Assembly: GCA_031267965.1 (NCBI GenBank)
Contig: JAIRYC010000095.1
Location: forward strand, 1-64,000
From: Oscillospiraceae bacterium
Lineage (GTDB): Bacteria; Bacillota; Clostridia; Oscillospirales; Acutalibacteraceae
DNA: 64,000 nucleotides
Direction: 5' to 3'
The notes beneath the pieces were generated by a model. That model saw only the letters and a program-made list of their open reading frames with translations. It searched no databases and had not been told where the DNA came from. Of this stretch, positions 42,502-54,647 are shown one piece after another. A program made the translations under genes and the position numbers. Each line of letters begins with the position of its first letter. Position 1 is the stretch's first letter.

Positions 42502-43056
42502 ATGAACAATAATTGGCTGCAAATCCCCAAGCGAATCCGGGAACTGCGCGAAGTGCTGGAGATCCCACAGGAGTCGCTTGCCCAAGCGCTGCGAGTCCCC
42601 TTGGGGGACTATATTGCAATGGAAAACGGGGAAAAGGACATCCCAATCAGCCTGCTATACAACATCGCGGAGGAACTGGGCACCGACTTCACTGTGCTTT
42701 CTACCGGCGAAGAGCCGCGCATGAACCAATATACGGTCGTCCGTCGTGGCGAAGGCGATCGCTTTGACCGCTTTGCAGGATACCATTTTGAGGGTTTGGC
42801 GGATAACTTTCAAAGCCGCGTGATGAAGCCTATGCTGGTGACGCTTGAAGCGGAGGAACCGGATCCTGAACAGGTAGTCCACAGTGGGCAGGAATTCAAC
42901 TATGTGCTTGAAGGGGAAATTCTCCTCAGGCTCAGCAGTTCCAAAATAAAGCTCAATGTTGGCGATAGTGTTTACTTTAATTCCACGCTGCCGCATTCTC
43001 AAAATGCAATTGGTGGCAAAGCTCGCTTCCTGGCTGTGATTACTGACCAGGGATAG
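42502..43056 (+). CDS. XRE-type regulator with C-terminal cupin
   Basis: 184-residue transcription factor. An N-terminal helix-turn-helix (about 8-62, IRELREVLEIPQESLAQALRVPLGDYIAMENGEKD) joins a cupin domain (about 100-180) with HSGQEFNYVLEGEILLRL and VGDSVYFNSTLPHSQNA. The cupin probably binds a small effector. It sits 25 bp before an acyl-CoA synthetase gene, a pairing common in Clostridia, so it most likely controls that gene and itself in response to an acyl compound. GGGG at 7 nt acts as the ribosome site. Confidence 0.93.
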   Translation: MNNNWLQIPKRIRELREVLEIPQESLAQALRVPLGDYIAMENGEKDIPISLLYNIAEELGTDFTVLSTGEEPRMNQYTVVRRGEGDRFDRFAGYHFEGLADNFQSRVMKPMLVTLEAEEPDPEQVVHSGQEFNYVLEGEILLRLSSSKIKLNVGDSVYFNSTLPHSQNAIGGKARFLAVITDQG

Positions 43057-43081
43057 AGCTTGTTAGAAAGGATTTTTACAT

Positions 43082-44770
43082 ATGTATGAAATACTCAAGC
43101 GCTTCTGTCCGCGGACGGAATTTTCTAGTTACGATGAGATGAAGCGCAAATTCCAAATCATCGTACCGGAGGATTTCAACTTCGGTTTTGACGTCGTGGA
43201 CGCATGGGCGCAGCTGGACCCGGACAAGCCTGCCTTGCTCTGGACGGACGACAGCGGCAAAATGCGCTCGTTCACCTTTGGCGATGTGCGAGCCGAAAGT
43301 AACCGCGCTGTCAACTTTCTACGCGATAAGGGAATCCGCAAAGGCGATGTGGTTATGCTCATCCTTAAGCAACGCCCAGAGGTATGGTTTTTGCTGACAG
43401 CGTTACATAAATTGGGTGCGGTAGCGCTTCCCGCAAGCTACCAATTGACACCAAAAGATTTGCGTTACCGCTTGGAGCTTTCCGAGGCGAAAATGCTTAT
43501 AACAGTGAGCGACGATGATGTAGTAGCGTATGCTCAGGAGGCGCTTGAGGACAGTCCCGGCGTTAAAAATTATGCAACAGTGGGCAATAAGGCCGTCCCC
43601 GGTGCAATTGACTATCGCCGCGTGGTTGGCGCTTATTCACCGGAATATGACCGCCCAACCGGCGCGGAAAATACCACAGTTGCCGACCCAATGCTCATCT
43701 ATTTTTCCAGTGGCACAACAGGCTTGCCAAAGATGGTACGGCACGATCATTCCTCTCCGCTGGGGCATATCACCAACGCGCTCTTTTGGCAACGCGTTGG
43801 CGACGGCAAGGTTCATCTGACACAAACTGACAGCGGCTGGGCAAAATTCGCCTGGGGCAAAATCTACGGTCAGTGGATTTGCGGTGCATGCATAGGCATC
43901 TACGACACAGAGAAGTTTGTCCCACAGGCCATGCTGGAAGCGATCGGGCGGCTTAAACCCTACACGTTCTGCGCTCCGGCAACGATCTACCGCTTCCTCA
44001 TCAAGGAGGATCTAAGCGGGTACGATTTCAGTTATATCAGTCATGCAAGCCTTGCCGGCGAGCCGCTTAATCCGGAGGTTTTCCGTCAGATTGAGACAAA
44101 AACCGCTCTGCGGATTTACGAAGGCTTTGGACAGAGCGAGGGCAGCGTCTTGCTGGCAAATTTTCCGTGGGACAAAATACGCCCGGGAAGTATGGGCAAG
44201 CCTTCACCCATTTACAATATCTTTCTGATGCGCGAGGATGGCACTGCCTGTGAGGACGGCGAAGTGGGCGCAATTTGCATCCGTAACGCACGCGATAAGC
44301 ACCCAACAGGTCTGTTCCGCGAATACTGGAAGGATACGGCGGCAACTGACAAAGCGTTCGCATATGGTCACTACAGCACCGGCGATACTGCTTGGCGTGA
44401 CGCGGATGGCTACTATTGGTTCGTTGGGCGCAACGACGACGTGATTAAGTGCTCGGGCTACCGCATTGGACCGTTTGAGGTGGAAAGCGCGCTGATGGAG
44501 CACCCGAGTGTGCTTGAATGTGCCGTCACCGCATATCCCGACCCGTTGCGTGGTGAGGTTGTGAAGGCGACTATTGTGCTGGCGCGCGGCTTTACGGGCA
44601 GTGATGATCTGAAAAAAGAACTGCAGAACTTAGTCAAGCATGTGACTGCGCCGTATAAATATCCACGTGTGGTGGAATTTGTGGACGAACTGCCCAAAAC
44701 CAGCAGCGGTAAAATCAGGCGCACGGCAATTCGCGCGGCGGATATGCAAAAACTGCAGGTGAGCAAATAA
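43082..44770 (+). CDS. Acyl-CoA synthetase (AMP-forming, medium-chain type)
   Basis: 562-residue ANL enzyme activating a carboxylic acid to its CoA thioester. The adenylate-forming P-loop is YFSSGTTGLPKM (about 207-218). Other motifs are YEGFGQSEG, YSTGDTAWRDADGYYWFVGRNDDVIK, and the C-terminal catalytic Lys in KTSSGKIRR. Sequence layout is closest to ACSM-type medium-chain or benzoate-like ligases; the substrate is unknown. GAAAGG precedes the ATG. Co-regulated with the XRE-cupin protein. Confidence 0.93.
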   Translation: MYEILKRFCPRTEFSSYDEMKRKFQIIVPEDFNFGFDVVDAWAQLDPDKPALLWTDDSGKMRSFTFGDVRAESNRAVNFLRDKGIRKGDVVMLILKQRPEVWFLLTALHKLGAVALPASYQLTPKDLRYRLELSEAKMLITVSDDDVVAYAQEALEDSPGVKNYATVGNKAVPGAIDYRRVVGAYSPEYDRPTGAENTTVADPMLIYFSSGTTGLPKMVRHDHSSPLGHITNALFWQRVGDGKVHLTQTDSGWAKFAWGKIYGQWICGACIGIYDTEKFVPQAMLEAIGRLKPYTFCAPATIYRFLIKEDLSGYDFSYISHASLAGEPLNPEVFRQIETKTALRIYEGFGQSEGSVLLANFPWDKIRPGSMGKPSPIYNIFLMREDGTACEDGEVGAICIRNARDKHPTGLFREYWKDTAATDKAFAYGHYSTGDTAWRDADGYYWFVGRNDDVIKCSGYRIGPFEVESALMEHPSVLECAVTAYPDPLRGEVVKATIVLARGFTGSDDLKKELQNLVKHVTAPYKYPRVVEFVDELPKTSSGKIRRTAIRAADMQKLQVSK

Positions 44771-44848: not shown

Positions 44849-46297
44849 TTAGAGCGGCAAATCCTTCTCCTTAAACACTTTAATGCCGATTGTATACAGC
44901 GCAACGCCCAGTGCGGCCAGTATTGCGAATTGCGGCCAGAATGTGCCGCCGCCCGTGATACTGTCGGGGTCAAACAGCGTGTTTAGTGACAGATATTTGA
45001 AATTCTCAAGGCTGCTGCTGACCTGCGACATGATTTGGAAGATGAAAAACGCAACCGGAATTCCTGCGCCAAGCGCCAGCGAGTTCTTTGACAGATTAAA
45101 TACACAGGAGAACAGGAAAGAAATTCCGGCTATAGCAAACATCAGCAGGAAAACACCGAGATTCAGCAATAAGTAGTCCTTTACGCTGAAAGCAATCCCT
45201 TTGTCCAGCGCGATTTCATCATTTGCGAGCTGTCCGTTAATAATTTTCAAAAACGCGGTTTCATTCATTTCGACAATCGCCTCTGTGGACGTTCCACTAG
45301 GGAGCGTTTCAGCAGGAACCAAGGCGGCAGCCTGTGCGGCGGCGGTCAGCGCCGTTGGGTTTGCCTTGATTTTGCCCATATTCGTCGCTAGATCGCCGGG
45401 ATCAACATCCAACACCACAGCGGCGGCGGTTATGCCTGCCATAAACTTAGTTTGCATTTCTCTGGATTGTTCGGCGGAGAGAGTGTGCTCTGTGGCCATG
45501 ACTTGAGAAAGCTGCGCGCTGTATACTGCAGATTCTATGCCCATTACATCCGCAGCGGCTTTCAATGCTTCCTCATTCTTTATAATGAGTGTGAGGTCAA
45601 CGCTCACTTTGTCCGCATTAACACCCAATACCTCTGCGGCAGCTTCATACGCCTTATTGCTGAGTTTTTGATTCAGATAAGTGATGTATACGTCCTCTTT
45701 GATGCCCCGCGCCTCGGATCCGGCCTTCACGGCTGCTTCATTGTTCAAAATGAGTGTGAGATCATCCGCAACCGCATCCTTATCCAGATTCAGTACCTCA
45801 GTCACCGCTTTCACATCCTTGGTATAATCCGTTCCCCAAAGACCGTGATGGGCAATCTGTATCGTGGAAAGTCCGACAACAGTAATAACCATAAACATAC
45901 AGAAAACGCTTGAAATCAAGTAGAGCGCCTGTGTGCGCACAACCTTTGTGCGTTTGATCGGCGTGGATAACAGGTATGCCATAGAGCCGCGGTCCACCTG
46001 TGAAGCTACAAGTGTGTTTGCAGTCATAATCACAAAAATCAGCGAGAGAATAATGCCCTGCATCCCATAAAAGCTCTGCCCAAGCATACCGAGCAGGGAG
46101 GTCATGCCGTCCATGCGGTCGCCCATCATGTCTGCCATGCCCGGCATATCCTTCACCATATCCATCATGCTCTGAATCATTTTGGGGTCGTACACCACGA
46201 TGACCAAGGCGCTCAGGACGGCCATAATCGCGGTGAAAATGGCCCAAAGCTTCCAGTTGGAGCGAAGCGTCTGCTTAAAAATCGTTTTAGAAAACAT
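44849..46297 (-). CDS. ABC-2 type exporter permease with repeated extracellular insert
   Basis: 482-residue membrane subunit. TM1 lies at about 18-36; TMs 2-3 at about 80-150, with ASQVDRGSMAYLLSTPIKR between them, as in ABC-2 permeases. A large insert of about 190 residues (about 165-355) follows, then three C-terminal TMs. The insert contains three diverged copies of a ~50-residue unit of the pattern EVLxLDxDxVxxDLTLIxxNExAxKAxxxxxGI. A GGAGG site precedes the ATG. It is the last gene of the operon with two ATPases. The cargo is unknown; antimicrobial peptide or lipid export is typical for this class. Confidence 0.9.
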   Translation of the reverse strand: MFSKTIFKQTLRSNWKLWAIFTAIMAVLSALVIVVYDPKMIQSMMDMVKDMPGMADMMGDRMDGMTSLLGMLGQSFYGMQGIILSLIFVIMTANTLVASQVDRGSMAYLLSTPIKRTKVVRTQALYLISSVFCMFMVITVVGLSTIQIAHHGLWGTDYTKDVKAVTEVLNLDKDAVADDLTLILNNEAAVKAGSEARGIKEDVYITYLNQKLSNKAYEAAAEVLGVNADKVSVDLTLIIKNEEALKAAADVMGIESAVYSAQLSQVMATEHTLSAEQSREMQTKFMAGITAAAVVLDVDPGDLATNMGKIKANPTALTAAAQAAALVPAETLPSGTSTEAIVEMNETAFLKIINGQLANDEIALDKGIAFSVKDYLLLNLGVFLLMFAIAGISFLFSCVFNLSKNSLALGAGIPVAFFIFQIMSQVSSSLENFKYLSLNTLFDPDSITGGGTFWPQFAILAALGVALYTIGIKVFKEKDLPL

Positions 46298-46311: not shown

Positions 46312-47193
46312 TTAATAAAGGCTCTTGAAATATTTCTCAAGAGAGTATTTGATCTCGGCGATGAACTTAACCCGGTAGCGTTTGAGCACACCCGTGAATC
46401 GGTCGATTTCATTGTCATGCACGTTTACCAGCACTTGGTTCTGTGCTTCACGCCGCTCCGAAAATTCAAAAGCTTCGGCAATGAAGCGCCGGTAATCTTC
46501 GTTGAACAAAAATTCAATCTTATAGACTTTATCTTGGTTATGCTTGATTTCGCGGGTAGCTTTTACTGCGATGATTTTCCCGTCCTTAATCAGCGCTACC
46601 TTGTCACAGGTGTCCTCCACTTCCTCAAACATGTGGCTGGACATGAAAATTGTCTTGCCCTTTTTCTTTTCGTCATTCAAAATGTCCACAAACTCCGCCC
46701 GCATAAGTGGGTCAAGCCCTGTTGTTGGTTCATCCATGATGAGGATTTCTGAATCGGCCATAAAAGCGGCGACAATAGCCGTCTTTTGCTTCATGCCTTT
46801 TGACATGCGTTTTAGATTGGCAGTTGGGTCAAGCTGGAGCTTTCCTATCATGGACTCTGCATAAGACGTGTCGGCGAGTCCCAAAAGCTCTGCCTGCCGC
46901 CGCAAGAATTCGGTTCCTGTGGGCGCATCCGGAAAGGCGATTTCGCCGGGAATATAGCCCACCATTCTTTTAATTTCAGCGGAATCATTCCATGAATCCA
47001 GACCTCCTATCGCAGCACTTCCGCTGTCCGGCTTCAAAAAGCCCATCATTTGCCGGATGAGGGTGGTTTTACCCGCACCGTTAGTGCCAACAAAGCCGAA
47101 TACCTCGCCCTTTTCGATAAACAGGCTTACGTCAAAATTGCCGCGTCCGTCGCCGTAATCCTTTGTAATGTTCCTTATTTCAATTAACGGCAT
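46312..47193 (-). CDS. ABC transporter ATP-binding protein
   Basis: 293-residue ATPase with Walker A GTNGAGKTT, signature MSKGMKQKTA, Walker B LIMDEPTTGLDP and the switch His in MSSHMFEEVE. The C-terminal ~70 residues (KVYKIEFLFNEDYRRF...) match the regulatory extension of multidrug-type exporters. Start 47193 is supported by GGAGGT; the longer frame runs into the upstream gene. It overlaps the other ATPase gene by 14 nt, and the permease gene follows by 14 bp. The two ATPases probably form a heterodimer. Confidence 0.95.
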   Translation of the reverse strand: MPLIEIRNITKDYGDGRGNFDVSLFIEKGEVFGFVGTNGAGKTTLIRQMMGFLKPDSGSAAIGGLDSWNDSAEIKRMVGYIPGEIAFPDAPTGTEFLRRQAELLGLADTSYAESMIGKLQLDPTANLKRMSKGMKQKTAIVAAFMADSEILIMDEPTTGLDPLMRAEFVDILNDEKKKGKTIFMSSHMFEEVEDTCDKVALIKDGKIIAVKATREIKHNQDKVYKIEFLFNEDYRRFIAEAFEFSERREAQNQVLVNVHDNEIDRFTGVLKRYRVKFIAEIKYSLEKYFKSLY

Positions 47194-48121: not shown

Positions 48122-48147
48122 TGCAATACCTCCTAAATTAATTTACA

Positions 48148-48163
48148 TGATTGAATTCATTCA
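48148..48163. promoter_or_regulatory. Putative TetR operator before the ABC operon
   Basis: TGATTGAATTCATTCA, an imperfect palindrome with the core TGAATTCA. It matches the site in the tetR promoter (48876-48891) at 15 of 16 positions in the other orientation. A weak -10 (TAAATT, with TG in front) lies next to it on the minus strand. Confidence 0.7.
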
Positions 48164-48193
48164 CGAACTTTGCAAATGAAAATGACTGCCGAC

Positions 48194-48781
48194 TTACCGA
48201 GGCGGCATTGGCTCCACATCCAAAATACGGAAAATAATATTTGCGAATGCTTGAGTTTTAGCTTCATCAGGCGCCTCAGAATCGGGAAGCCCGATTAGTC
48301 CGCTGAAGCCCTGTAATATGAATACGGCGGTTTCTTTCGGATATTCACAGTTCCACGAGCCATCAGCATTTCCACGCTCAATCAGTGAGAACAAGAGTGG
48401 CAGGATGGATGCTGTCATTTTTTGGGTGCAATACTCAAGAATCGCCCGGTCGCTCTTTAGGCTTGGAATTAACTTGTCGTGCGCTTCAAAGTCTAGACGG
48501 CAATTAAAAAGCAACGTCAATCCCTCAAGCGCAGAAGCACTGTTGGTTTCCATTTTTTGCTTCATTCTTTCAGTTTGTCCTGCAGCTATTTGGTCAATGA
48601 CAGCGTATAAAATATCTCTTTTTGACTTGAAATAGTGATAAACAAGCCCTTGCGCCGCGTTCATTCTGTTTGAAATATCCGCCACTTGGGTTTTATCAAA
48701 CCCTTTTTCTTTGAACGACTTCTGCGCGGTATCAATAATTTCCTGCCGCCGTTCTTCAACCGGTTTAGTAATCCTTGACAC
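48194..48781 (-). CDS. TetR family repressor
   Basis: 195-residue regulator. I chose GTG 48781 because AAAGGAGG lies 7 nt upstream and the product then starts SRITKPVEERRQEIIDTAQKSF, the usual TetR N-terminus. The longer frame to 48997 would run through the promoter. The helix-turn-helix is FKEKGFDKTQVADISNRMNAAQGLVYHYFKSK (about 20-51), and the C-terminal part is the ligand-binding domain. It lies directly upstream of the ABC operon in the same direction, and near-identical palindromes are found before both, so it probably represses itself and the exporter until a toxic ligand binds. Confidence 0.93.
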   Translation of the reverse strand: MSRITKPVEERRQEIIDTAQKSFKEKGFDKTQVADISNRMNAAQGLVYHYFKSKRDILYAVIDQIAAGQTERMKQKMETNSASALEGLTLLFNCRLDFEAHDKLIPSLKSDRAILEYCTQKMTASILPLLFSLIERGNADGSWNCEYPKETAVFILQGFSGLIGLPDSEAPDEAKTQAFANIIFRILDVEPMPPR

Positions 48782-48863
48782 AGGAAGACCTCCTTTCAGT
48801 TCGCCAATCGCTCTGCAGCTTTTTTCGGCCAAACAGTCAAAGCAATTCATCGATTGCTTCACT

Positions 48864-48892
48864 AGTATAACATATTGAATGAATTCAGTCAA
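48864..48892 (-). promoter_or_regulatory. Promoter and operator of tetR
   Basis: Minus strand TTGACT (complement of 48887-48892), 17 bp, TATACT (complement of 48864-48869). The spacer and -35 are occupied by an 18-bp palindrome (48875-48892; TTGA-N-TGAATTCA-N-TCAA), so a bound repressor would block polymerase directly. Confidence 0.82.
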
Positions 48893-49268: not shown

Positions 49269-51710
49269 TTATCCGGGATTATATGCTTGGCTTGGCTTCT
49301 CTTCAGGAACCGCAGTCTCTCCTTCCTCTGGGAAGGCGTTTGGCGGGTCAATGACCGGCGGAGCGATTTTTGGCTGTGGTGCATCAGGGAGAGTGGTTTT
49401 ATCTAAATCAATTGTGCCCAGCCGCTTGGCAGTCTTCAGATCAAAGCTGAAGAGTTTGCCGTATTGCCGCGTATAAATTGTGTTGTCCACGTACGTCGCC
49501 CGTTCCGCGGCATAGTTGGTGTTATTAGTGTACCAGTTGCCGTAATCGTATTCGCCATTGCCCGGGCCGCTCTCCAAATAAGCGCTGTAGTTTAAGGCCT
49601 TGACGAGCTTACCGTCTTTCACACGGAAGGTATAGAGTAGAAACTCCTGTTCCGATTTTGTGATGTGCCCATCATAAATCGTGTATTCTGTAGAGGTTCG
49701 ATATATCGGCAAACCGAAAAGTCCTTCTTCCGGATAACTGAAAAATGCCTTATGATCCCACTGGGCGTCGGTGCTATAATTTTTAGTTACTTCCGTCGAT
49801 TTTTTGCCGGCGACGGCAGTTGTGTAATTCTCAAAAATTATGCTGTTCACTTCTTTTGGCTTCTTTGGGTCCCGCACGTCAAACAGGCTGAGCTTTATGC
49901 CGCCTGTAGCGCCTTTTTCGTTACCGGGAACACCTACGCCCAACAGCCAGCCGTCGCCAACGGGGTGCAGGTAGGACGAAAAGCCCGGGATCTTAAGTTC
50001 ACCCACAACCTTGGGTTTGTTTGCGTTCGCTAAATCCAGAACAAACAACGGATCGGTTTGCAAAAAGGTGACGACGTAGCCGGTTGCGCCCACAAAACGC
50101 ACAGACTGTATTTGCTCACCGGGCGCGACGTTATTCACTTGGCCAATGGTTTTTAGCTTGCTATCCAGCACAAAGACCGCGTTGGCTTGATCACGGAGCA
50201 TTTTGCCTTCTTGGTATTCCTCATACTTACTGCCGTCTGGAGTCGTGTGCGTTGTTTCTTTGCTAGGTGCGTAAACCGGGTCTAACTGTGTGGCAATACG
50301 CAGATTACCCTGATATTCGTCCATGCTGAATTGATTGAGAGTGCGCCCAGGCACCGATCCAGAACAGATAAGGCGCGGCTTGCCGTCCAGCGCAAACTTA
50401 TAAATCTCCGTTTCGGTCTGGCTCTTATTATCATAGGTTGTGCGGCCCACATACAGTGTGTCGCCGGAGCAGTAGAGGTTCTCACCGGCACCCAGCACAG
50501 CACAATGCTCAGCGTTTAATTCCTTGGCGTTCAAGTCAAGGTTGGCCACTACCAAATAAGATGGCGTTGGGCTGTTGACGGTGCTGTAGATCTTATCCAG
50601 CGTAAGATTTTCCTCTTTGCCGTTTTTAAGAATTTGCGGATACATATCACGCGACGGAGTAAACCCTTGGCTCCAAATTTGCACGGCTGAGGTCGTCGTC
50701 ACGGTGATGCGCCCGTTATACAGGCGGCTGGAAAGATGTGTGCCATCCTGACCGGAGGTGTAGAGCAGCTGAGGATTTTCACCATCTGCGTCAGAATAAA
50801 CACGGACAATGGTGCGTATTTTCTGATTGTTGTATTCAAATACCTGCCCTTGCAGAAAATACCCCTGCGTTTGACTGATGACGATGAGCTTGCCCTTGTG
50901 CAGGAACATGCCAACGACTTCCTCGCACTCATTCACATAGCGCCAGCCTTGGTAGACGATAATGGGGCTAATTTCCTTCATTTTACCACCAGGCAGTAGT
51001 TGCACGCGGCGCACGCCAACAGTCACGGTTTGCTTATCGTCCTCGCCGCTCACATGCCCGGGCGAGGCAATAAATAGCGTCTTGCCGCTGTTTTTGATGA
51101 TATCCTGCTCGTCAATATCGGCAATCTGGTTGTTTGTTTGCCCAACAGCTTGATTTTGGACGTTTTGTTGCGCACTGTCACCGCCGGTCGGATTGCTTCT
51201 TGGTGAAGTATCTATCGCTACTTCGTTGGATTCGGCATTAGGTGGAGAGCTATTCTCGAAGTAGTTGTAGTTGCCGCTGGATTTATTGCTAAAAATTCCG
51301 TCAAAAACGCCGCCGTATTGCTTGCGCAGCGCATCCCAAACAGTGCCGTTGCCGCTATCTTTAAACCAGCGGAACAGAGCTTCCAACTCAGCCTCGCTCT
51401 GCGGGTGGACTGCAAGCTTATCCTCGGCACTGCTTTCAACCCAATCGGGCGGAGCGGGCGTTTTAAGCGTCAATCCGGTGGAATACAGCGCGGCGCCTAG
51501 CGCAACGCAGAACACCAGAACCGCCGCAACGGCGGAAATCATAGGCTTTTTCCAATGGATTTTGTATTTACGCGGCTGGGTGAACTGTTCCCACTGTACG
51601 GTGTTGTCGGTCTCTTTTGGTGAAATGCGGGTCGGTATTTGGGTATCGTGCAACGCGGCGCGGAATTCACGGCGCAGGCGCTGTGCTGTGTGGATATCTT
51701 TACGATTCAT
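49269..51710 (-). CDS. Membrane-anchored beta-propeller domain protein
   Basis: 813-residue protein with a cytoplasmic basic N-terminus (about 1-55), one membrane helix (about 57-77) and a large extracellular part. The region starting TNNQIADIDEQDIIKNSGKTLFIAS (about 195) is the signature of the secreted beta-propeller family (Beta_propel), and the rest reads as repeated blades ending in a Pro/Glu-rich tail. It follows a sigma factor gene by 75 bp in the same operon, the place where an anti-sigma or sensor is expected. The short cytoplasmic N-terminus could be the sigma-interacting part, but no zinc anti-sigma motif is present. Confidence 0.88.
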   Translation of the reverse strand: MNRKDIHTAQRLRREFRAALHDTQIPTRISPKETDNTVQWEQFTQPRKYKIHWKKPMISAVAAVLVFCVALGAALYSTGLTLKTPAPPDWVESSAEDKLAVHPQSEAELEALFRWFKDSGNGTVWDALRKQYGGVFDGIFSNKSSGNYNYFENSSPPNAESNEVAIDTSPRSNPTGGDSAQQNVQNQAVGQTNNQIADIDEQDIIKNSGKTLFIASPGHVSGEDDKQTVTVGVRRVQLLPGGKMKEISPIIVYQGWRYVNECEEVVGMFLHKGKLIVISQTQGYFLQGQVFEYNNQKIRTIVRVYSDADGENPQLLYTSGQDGTHLSSRLYNGRITVTTTSAVQIWSQGFTPSRDMYPQILKNGKEENLTLDKIYSTVNSPTPSYLVVANLDLNAKELNAEHCAVLGAGENLYCSGDTLYVGRTTYDNKSQTETEIYKFALDGKPRLICSGSVPGRTLNQFSMDEYQGNLRIATQLDPVYAPSKETTHTTPDGSKYEEYQEGKMLRDQANAVFVLDSKLKTIGQVNNVAPGEQIQSVRFVGATGYVVTFLQTDPLFVLDLANANKPKVVGELKIPGFSSYLHPVGDGWLLGVGVPGNEKGATGGIKLSLFDVRDPKKPKEVNSIIFENYTTAVAGKKSTEVTKNYSTDAQWDHKAFFSYPEEGLFGLPIYRTSTEYTIYDGHITKSEQEFLLYTFRVKDGKLVKALNYSAYLESGPGNGEYDYGNWYTNNTNYAAERATYVDNTIYTRQYGKLFSFDLKTAKRLGTIDLDKTTLPDAPQPKIAPPVIDPPNAFPEEGETAVPEEKPSQAYNPG

Positions 51711-51785
51711 AAGGTGACCTCCGGTCCTGTGTGTCTGGTAAAAAAATTGATATGATTGTTCTGCATAATGGGAAAGGATATATGT

Positions 51786-52298
51786 TTACTCATCTTCGTC
51801 AAGATATTGGCGGATTTTTGCCAGCGCCCGCGAGCGTTTGGAGCGCAGTGTACCGTGGTTTATGCTCAATGCGGCGGCGGCTTCCTTGCCAGAGAGTCCG
51901 GTGAGCACGCACAGCATTACAATTTCGCGCTCGTCATATGGTAAAGCGTTGAGCGCGTTGCGGGTTTCCTGTGAAAGCATAATGCTGTCCGGCGCGGCAG
52001 TGTCAGGGATTATTTCATCGCCCAACGACCGAACGCGGCCTTCTGATCGGATAATTGTGCGGCAGCGGTTTGCTAGAATCTTAAAAAGCCACTTTTCAAA
52101 GCTAGGTTCACTGTGCAAAGAAGCCATCTGACGCCAAGCAACAAGCACACTATCCTGTACGGCTTCTTCCGCCAGCGCACCGGAGCGCAGACAGATACAC
52201 GCGTAGGCGTAAAGGCGCTTATGGTACAACTGGTAAAGCTCCCCGAAGGCCAGGGAACTGCCTTCTTTTGCCTGCCGCACCAAACTTGTTTGGGGCAT
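51786..52298 (-). CDS. ECF-type RNA polymerase sigma factor
   Basis: 170-residue sigma-70 family protein with region 2 (SLVRQAKEGSSLAFGELYQLYHKRLYAYA... AVQDSVLVAWRQM... FEKWLFKILANRCRTIIR) and region 4 (LPYDEREIVMLCVLTGLSGKEAAAALSINHGTLRSKRSRALAKIRQYL). The start at 52298 has AAGGAG 7 nt upstream; the longer frame is spurious. Its target promoters are unknown. It is paired with the beta-propeller membrane protein downstream, which probably senses an envelope signal. Confidence 0.94.
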   Translation of the reverse strand: MPQTSLVRQAKEGSSLAFGELYQLYHKRLYAYACICLRSGALAEEAVQDSVLVAWRQMASLHSEPSFEKWLFKILANRCRTIIRSEGRVRSLGDEIIPDTAAPDSIMLSQETRNALNALPYDEREIVMLCVLTGLSGKEAAAALSINHGTLRSKRSRALAKIRQYLDEDE

Positions 52299-52416
52299 GT
52301 TGTTGCTCCTTGTGTTGGTTTTGCTGTCCGCACTATGGGCTTTTGTATGAACAGAGTGGGGAAACGGCTGTTTTGTTGCGTAAAGTGATAAATTTAAACG
52401 TTTATTTGCTATCTCT

Positions 52417-52538: not shown

Positions 52539-53768
52539 CTACGCTGCGGGCGCAAGCATCTCCGCCGTCTGCCGTACCGCAAGTGCGTCTGCTGTTTCGA
52601 GCATTGTTTCGGCAAAAATGCCATAACCCTGCAACGGGTTGTTGACAAACACATGCGTCACCGCACCAACCAGCATGCCATCCTGTAAAATAGGGCTGCC
52701 GCTCATACCCTGCACAATACCGCCCGTCAAGGCGATCAATTCCGGGTCGGAGACCTGAATAATCAGGTTCTTTCGGCTCCCCGCGCTGATTGGGTACACT
52801 TTTTTTATTTCTGCGTCAAAGCAGCGCGCTTTGCCATCGTCCACGGTGGCCATAATTTGCGCTTTGCCCGTTTTGACCTCCTGCTTTAGTGCGACAGGCA
52901 GCTTCAATGGTTCATCGCCCGGCGATTGGTATAGCTTGCCATAAACGCCCGTATCTCCATTTTGTAACAGCCCTGCAAACGATGAACCGTTAAACACGCC
53001 GCAAAGCTCACCAGTCTTGCCGTTTATACCCTTATAGCAACCCTTTACCAGAGCTGGAACCGCTTCGCCCGCACTGATTGGAATTACCGCGCCACTGTCC
53101 ACATCACAGATTGCGTGCCCCAAGCCCGCAAGCATGTTCGTTTGCGGGTCGGTGAATGTTACAGTGCCAATGCCTGCCGAAGAATCACGCACCCAAATCC
53201 CCGCCTTGTATGTGCCGTCGCTGCACCTGGCAGGCGCCAATGTCAGCGTTTTTTGTGAACCTTCGCGCTCAATCAGCAGAGAGAGGTTCTTGCCGCCGCT
53301 TGCAGAAACCGCCTCTGATACCTGCGTGTTGCGTGTTACAGCTGTGCCGTCAATCTCAAGAAGAAGATCGCCCGGGCGCAGGTCAGCATGCACCGCAGGG
53401 CTTTGCTTACCCTCAACGCCCGCAACGCTGTCAACCGCCACGACCACTACGCCTTTTGCGTAAAGCTTAAGACCAAAAACCTGTCCGCCGGGTATAACAT
53501 ATCGTCGCTGGTTGGCCTGTGCAGAGGCATTTTTGACCGGAAATAGTCCGAACAAACGCATTTGGGAAGTATTTACAGCACTGCCAGAAACAACTGCTCC
53601 CACTGTTGTGTTTTTGGATGAACTTGTCAATACCGAAAAGAAAGGCTCCACAGTTTGCAAATAAAGCCCACCTTCTGGTAAAAGCAACTGCGCGTAAAAC
53701 ATCAGGCAGAATAAAGGCAAAAGCAGCGTTGCGGCGACGAGGCTCACACTGCGCAGAAGCCTGCGCAT
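52539..53768 (-). CDS. spoIVB: SpoIVB serine peptidase (S55)
   Basis: Forespore-secreted protease that signals across the intermembrane space to trigger pro-sigma-K processing. The 409-residue protein has an N-terminal membrane or signal segment, a PDZ domain (about 95-185, LRPGDLLLEIDGTAV), and the S55 domain with GLGHAICDVDSG and the catalytic Ser in VQGMSGSPIL. ATG 53768 is preferred (GGGTG 8 nt upstream) over an upstream in-frame TTG. spo0A, its usual neighbour, is absent; the sigma factor operon follows instead. Confidence 0.95.
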   Translation of the reverse strand: MRRLLRSVSLVAATLLLPLFCLMFYAQLLLPEGGLYLQTVEPFFSVLTSSSKNTTVGAVVSGSAVNTSQMRLFGLFPVKNASAQANQRRYVIPGGQVFGLKLYAKGVVVVAVDSVAGVEGKQSPAVHADLRPGDLLLEIDGTAVTRNTQVSEAVSASGGKNLSLLIEREGSQKTLTLAPARCSDGTYKAGIWVRDSSAGIGTVTFTDPQTNMLAGLGHAICDVDSGAVIPISAGEAVPALVKGCYKGINGKTGELCGVFNGSSFAGLLQNGDTGVYGKLYQSPGDEPLKLPVALKQEVKTGKAQIMATVDDGKARCFDAEIKKVYPISAGSRKNLIIQVSDPELIALTGGIVQGMSGSPILQDGMLVGAVTHVFVNNPLQGYGIFAETMLETADALAVRQTAEMLAPAA

Positions 53769-53922
53769 ATATAACACACCCTTTCTGCGCAAAGAGAGCG
53801 CATGAAAAGATTGTGCCCGGAAGGGATCAGAATTATGAATTGGTGGAATTTGGAAGATAATTTTACATGATTTCTGGCGCAGCTTTTAGCATTTCTATTC
53901 TCAAACAAAAAGCTCCATACAT

Positions 53923-54239: not shown

Positions 54240-54647
54240 ATGGCTGATGTTTTTGATAGTAAAAAGAGTTCTGAAATAATGAAAAGAGTTCATTCTAAAA
54301 ACAATAAATCGACAGAACTAAAGCTGATGCAGATATTTGATGAAAATCATATAATCGGTTGGAAAAGAAACTATCCAGTAAAAGGTCATCCTGATTTTGT
54401 CTTTCTTGATAAGAAAGTCGCTATTTTTGTTGACGGTTGTTTTTGGCATGGACACGATTGCAGAAATACGCGACCTTCTGATAATTCGGAATATTGGTCA
54501 AAAAAGCGAGAACGGAATATAAAACATGATGAGGAAATAACAGCTTTATTTGAACGGCGAAAATGGCAAGTTATACGCATTTGGGAGTGCGAACTAAAGA
54601 AAAAGAACAGAGATATTCTTATAGAGAAATTTAATTGTTGCCAGTAA
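54240..54647 (+). CDS. vsr: Very short patch repair endonuclease (Vsr)
   Basis: 135-residue endonuclease that nicks 5' of T in T:G mismatches arising from deamination of 5-methylcytosine. The family pattern is clear: IMKRVHSKNNKSTELKLM, YPVKGHPDFVFLDKKVAIFVDGCFWHGHDC (active-site Asp and zinc-site Cys/His), YWSKKRERN, and WQVIRIWECELK. Vsr normally accompanies a Dcm-type cytosine methyltransferase; none is in the window. AT-rich like its neighbour, pointing to transfer. It starts without a strong ribosome site (GAAAGCGGGC is nearest). Confidence 0.9.
   Translation: MADVFDSKKSSEIMKRVHSKNNKSTELKLMQIFDENHIIGWKRNYPVKGHPDFVFLDKKVAIFVDGCFWHGHDCRNTRPSDNSEYWSKKRERNIKHDEEITALFERRKWQVIRIWECELKKKNRDILIEKFNCCQ

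Follow-up and report, generated by a model that had tools for sequence, protein, structure and literature searches.

As a general rule, TetR-type repressors of efflux modules control both their own gene and the adjoining one (PMC3511530). FhtR of Enterococcus faecalis, which senses heme, represses hrtBA, and its 14-nt palindromes of the TTATCAATCGATAA type both lie in the hrtBA promoter (PMC7858072). In Clostridium thermocellum, the operator TGACCACGTGGTCA of TetR_0692 was identified by DAP-seq and gel shift, and the only conserved target of this regulator is its own gene (PMC8457756). SbtR of Thermus thermophilus has a 14-bp operator, TGACTGGCCAGTCA (PMC4948773). Computational prediction of operators for uncharacterised regulators has been validated by experiment in the case of Snowprint (PMC10858194).

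We analysed a window (the whole stretch of 64,000 nucleotides from an Oscillospiraceae bacterium, contig JAIRYC010000095.1) in which an earlier note had proposed that a TetR regulator directly controls itself and an adjoining ABC exporter operon. As in TetR/TetA and QacR/QacA, a small repressor composed of a helix-turn-helix and a helical domain is combined with a palindromic operator on a promoter and an adjoining exporter (PMC3511530); however, tetR and the exporter genes of the window are co-directional and have two separated operators, whereas the classical pairs are divergent and share one. The locus resembles FhtR-hrtBA as a predicted TetR-family repressor of an ABC exporter with two near-identical palindromes (PMC7858072), but the palindromes here span 16 bp, and one is located at the tetR promoter and the other before the first ATPase gene, ABC1. 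Like TetR_0692, the window regulator is a clostridial TetR whose own gene is preceded by a genome-unique palindrome (PMC8457756), although the operator sequences differ. The SbtR half-site, TGACTG..CAGTCA, is very close to the TGACTGAA..TTCAGTCA of the window, but the SbtR operator is two bases shorter between its half-sites and the likeness is of operator sequence alone. None of these three regulators (FhtR, TetR_0692 and SbtR) has the window operator, and no paper describing it turned up in literature searches for the full sequence and for each half.

Results

A palindrome on the tetR promoter is repeated ahead of the exporter genes

The genes tetR, ABC1, ABC2 and the ABC-2 permease gene follow one another in this order on the minus strand, all co-directional (Table 1). 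The limits of the tetR coding sequence were set by its start, a GTG at 48781 behind an AGGAGG ribosome site. The N-terminal helix-turn-helix of the product scored 51.1 bits against TetR_N (PF00440; cut-off 24), and its AlphaFold2 model (pLDDT 83) was all-helical, with ten helices and the family fold. By TetR_N, the all-helical C-terminal domain (predicted to serve ligand binding and dimerisation) and the modelled fold, the predicted protein is assigned to the TetR/AcrR family. In a Foldseek search its best PDB match was 3b81 (E 9.4e-8), a clostridial TetR/AcrR regulator annotated merely as predicted, followed by QacR, EilR, EthR2 and others; FadR of Bacillus subtilis (3whb) was also among the structural matches, below 3b81. 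No NCBIfam equivalog attained its cut-off for tetR in a profile search. The best NCBIfam name by score was FadR (Bacillus type, NF053878), an identity that we rejected, as the score of 44.7 fell below the curated cut-off, which is 200; the match was confined to the first ~97 residues, identity over the fold match to 3whb was 22%, and no fatty-acid degradation genes were found in the window operon. FadR of B. subtilis has the half-site TGAATGA.

Table 1. Coordinates of the tetR-exporter locus and its putative regulatory sites, as positions in the window.
Feature	Coordinates	Strand	Evidence
Operator 1, TGACTGAATTCATTCA on the minus strand, over the -35 box and spacer of the tetR promoter	48876..48891	.	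Exact match; conserved in orthologues
tetR promoter, TTGACT-17 bp-TATACT	48864..48892	-	Best promoter-like site of the region, 10/12; hexamers and spacing conserved in orthologues
tetR, TetR/AcrR-type repressor, 195 aa	48194..48781	-	Pfam TetR_N 1.1e-13; TetR fold model
Possible weak ABC-operon promoter, TTGCAA-17 bp-AATCAT, with -10 box within operator 2	48147..48175	-	Read from sequence, 8/12
Operator 2, TGATTGAATTCATTCA, between tetR and ABC1, 27 bp 5' of the ABC1 ATG	48148..48163	.	Exact match; core conserved in L036/L037 amid diverged spacer
ABC1, ABC transporter ATP-binding protein, 313 aa	47180..48121	-	Pfam ABC_tran 6.7e-24; 84-88% identical in L036/L037
ABC2, second ATP-binding protein, overlapping the ABC1 end	46312..47193	-	Pfam ABC_tran 1.9e-22
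ABC-2 type permease, 482 aa, with ~210-aa insert	44849..46297	-	Pfam ABC2_membrane_2 1.1e-11

When the window and the assembly were searched for TGANTGAATTCANTCA, exact matches were found at operators 1 and 2, the two positions at which the earlier note had placed sites sharing a 16-bp core. The plus strand reads TGATTGAATTCATTCA at operator 2 and TGAATGAATTCAGTCA at operator 1; because the reverse complement of the latter is TGACTGAATTCATTCA, the description of operator 1 as a reverse-oriented match to TGA-N-TGAATTCA-T-TCA was correct. Once one is reversed, the two palindromes are identical at 15 of 16 bases, and their start-to-start spacing of 728 bp agrees with the separation of about 730 bp given before. 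The position of operator 1 had been described as within the -35/-10 spacer of the tetR promoter, which holds for the 11 bases of the palindrome that extend into the 17-bp spacer but not for its TGACT, which coincides with bases 2-6 of the -35 hexamer TTGACT. In silico, a palindromic operator that overlaps the promoter of the regulator's own gene is present and is conserved on the -35 box. Just 3' of the tetR -10 box, at 48841-48863, there is also an inverted repeat with perfect 7-bp arms (AAGCAAT-cgatga-ATTGCTT), which would be located near the 5' end of the tetR mRNA.

Downstream of tetR, ABC_tran was found twice and ABC2_membrane_2 once in a single operon, all above their cut-offs for an ABC-2 type exporter, and the operon is predicted to encode one of the drug type. 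No NCBIfam equivalog attained its cut-off for the ATPases ABC1 and ABC2; they scored 189.4 and 175 against the 312.45 required for the daunorubicin-resistance ATPase DrrA (TIGR01188). The permease insert occupies residues ~150-369, between the conserved halves, and contains imperfect repeats (residues 163-192 resemble 218-247). Permease homologues elsewhere align at residues 1-153 and 368-482 only; within the class, the homologues mostly measure ~270-290 aa and have no insert, and the permease of locus L037 (Propionibacteriaceae) lacks about 70 of the insert residues.

The stop codon of tetR and the start of ABC1 are separated by 72 bp on the same strand, and this gap contained no promoter at the scan threshold and no terminator call. 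These features would fit a TetR that only autoregulates, with the ABC genes transcribed from the tetR promoter in one operon and operator 2, instead of serving a promoter of its own, reinforcing repression as an auxiliary looping or roadblock site, and we regard this as a substantial possibility, if the less probable reading. A weak promoter can, however, be written at operator 2, although it was under the promoter-scan threshold and was not convincingly conserved in L036 and L037, the two other loci with these four genes. In addition, the interval from tetR to the site contains hairpins in L036 (z -1.6) and L037 (z -2.6) that would fit a separate transcription unit; the window's own gap has no such hairpin (z 0.14), which left a conserved attenuator between tetR and ABC1 unsupported.

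Several other genes were noted around the locus. An HTH-cupin regulator gene followed by a gene for an acyl-CoA synthetase-like AMP-binding enzyme (42502-44770) is convergent with the exporter operon. At 49269-52409, the gene of a Beta_propel domain protein (PF09826) adjoins that of an ECF sigma factor in the same orientation, possibly as a sigma/anti-sigma-like pair. A sporulation gene for a SpoIVB-type S55 peptidase with a PDZ domain, at 52539-53792, suggests that the host is a spore former or is descended from one. A Vsr mismatch endonuclease gene is located at 54240-54647; Vsr genes often accompany DNA cytosine methyltransferases.

The site accompanies close relatives of the regulator

Conservation of the sites in related genomes, which the earlier note had named as a check, was evident. 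A scan of genome contigs for relatives of the window TetR yielded 11 distinct loci, L036-L045 and L047, with TetRs 46-71% identical to that of the window; L046, which mirrors L045, and L132, which corresponds to L042, were not counted separately. The site, with at most one mismatch, was present at all 11 of these loci having a TetR at least 46% identical, and at none of 67 control loci of less related TetRs (495,541 bases). In most of the 11 it is located 59-129 bp upstream of the tetR start codon. At L043 and L044 it precedes an SDR-tetR operon, of which the short-chain dehydrogenase (SDR) gene is the first; at L036 two copies (with one and two mismatches) lie ahead of a flavodoxin-tetR operon in which the flavodoxin gene comes first; and at L047 it is 3' of tetR, ahead of the next genes. 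The 11 upstream regions align as TTGACTGAATTCATTCAATGTGTTATACT, with TTGAC invariant and the palindrome's left arm serving also as the -35 box, so that promoter and operator are conserved as one block.

We also compared the exporter genes with and without the regulator. The tetR, ABC1, ABC2 and permease genes all recur in L036 and L037, with ABC1 88% and 84% identical, respectively, to that of the window, and the site ahead of ABC1 is retained in both as a conserved core, the rest of the gap having diverged in sequence and length. Two small genomes (L149 and L152) encode ABC1-ABC2-permease, with ATPases 56-59% identical, but no adjoining tetR, and there the site was absent; the site therefore goes with the regulator. 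It was also absent from the more distant single-ATPase relatives (L145-L148, L150 and L151). Since the gene adjoining tetR at several orthologous loci does not encode an exporter, the exporter is not a fixed partner, a point that weighs against joint control of the two.

The presence of further TetR genes in the genome would allow the palindromes to belong to another regulator of both promoters rather than to the neighbouring TetR, whose binding we infer. We consider this very improbable, as the motif tracks orthologues of this TetR across many genomes, is missing from the 67 other TetR loci, and does not track the exporter in genomes where this tetR does not accompany it.

The tetR-exporter cluster, 66-88% identical to that of the window, occurs at L037, which is binned as Propionibacteriaceae (Actinomycetota), and at L036, on an Oscillospiraceae contig; the sampled genomes of the window's own genus are without this tetR. 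This distribution suggests horizontal transfer, or mis-binning of L037. No orthologue of the window tetR was found in the sampled genus or family, where the best matches were about 30% identical, and neither the site nor an exporter of similar type was seen at such matches in L006 and L007.

A motif-first search of 391 class-level genomes for TTGACTGAATTCANTCA returned two matches, both directly upstream of tetR homologues: one in the window tetR promoter, and one immediately before a tetR in another family (L125) whose product is 34% identical. L125 has two exact sites, one before this tetR and a second, TGAATGAATTCATTCA, between it and a MacB-type ABC pair, and in sequence it repeats the putative two-operator layout with a different exporter. 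The site was absent from L048, with a 37% identical TetR, and from several TetRs of about 32-36% identity. At L131 (1813-1861), the gene of a 31%-identical TetR is closely preceded by two variants of the palindrome, TGACTGATGTCAGTCA and TGACTGACATCAGTCA, and an ABC pair comes next. Such variants suggest drift of the operator core among the more distant members. An exact site in genome G013 was taken as a chance occurrence, because no TetR or transporter was near it among the open reading frames seen there.

The two palindromes are the only close copies in the genome

The two palindromes were the sole exact copies in the window and in the assembly (1,954,578 bases, 123 contigs), and no one-mismatch palindrome was found elsewhere in a search of the whole assembly. 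Under a first-order Markov model of the window, whose base composition was used for all genome-wide expectations, 0.010 exact and 0.40 one-mismatch palindromes are expected in 1.95 Mb. Random scatter of the motif across the genome, the outcome that would have counted against the earlier note, was not found. Two-mismatch palindromes were at background level (10 observed versus 7.3 expected, 7 of the 10 within open reading frames), which leaves a wider regulon in this genome unsupported, and a looser symmetric pattern gained a single extra site, inside an open reading frame; the regulon in the host genome most likely consists of just the two window sites. That background level would be compatible with a chance likeness of two AT-centred palindromes (GAATTC core), an explanation that we dismiss, as two exact copies at one locus far exceed the expectation and conservation at orthologous loci refutes it in practice.

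Discussion

Our comparative evidence favours the direct control of tetR and the exporter that had been proposed: the site, within a conserved promoter, separates all close TetR loci from all controls, and it stands before ABC1 in L036 and L037 and is missing from the exporter that has no adjoining tetR. We consider it very probable that an autoregulated, ligand-released TetR repressor controls itself and an ABC-2 exporter through two operators. A TetR dimer would bind the 16-bp palindrome. Occupancy of operator 1, which covers the tetR -35 box, would exclude RNA polymerase and result in negative autoregulation. Occupancy of operator 2 would silence ABC1-ABC2-permease, either by covering the weak promoter or by blocking read-through transcripts from tetR; as no clear terminator separates the genes, operator 2 could act on transcription through tetR. 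By TetR-family precedent, a small molecule, probably the exporter substrate or a chemical likeness of it, would release the repressor, and regulator and exporter would then be made together. The switch probably turns the exporter on when some compound arrives, and in its mechanism it is an ordinary TetR-type system.

The one less usual feature is that the operator hardly varies from genome to genome, whereas the target genes beside it do (exporter, flavodoxin and SDR genes). We tentatively suggest that an unnamed, mostly Firmicute TetR lineage retains TTGACTGAATTCATTCA-N6-TATACT as an almost unchanging promoter-operator and that its target genes are swapped from lineage to lineage, among them those of flavodoxins, short-chain dehydrogenases and exporters of the two-ATPase ABC-2, MacB and HlyD-linked types. 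This would make the regulator a sensor of one toxic, perhaps redox-active, compound class with interchangeable responses.

Target-gene turnover beneath an operator that stays fixed illustrates, on a small scale, how regulons are rewired. For an unstudied TetR lineage, the locus provides a regulator-operator pair that can be tested, the operator being defined well enough for a reporter and inducer screen, and the inducer, once found, would point to the cargo of the exporter.
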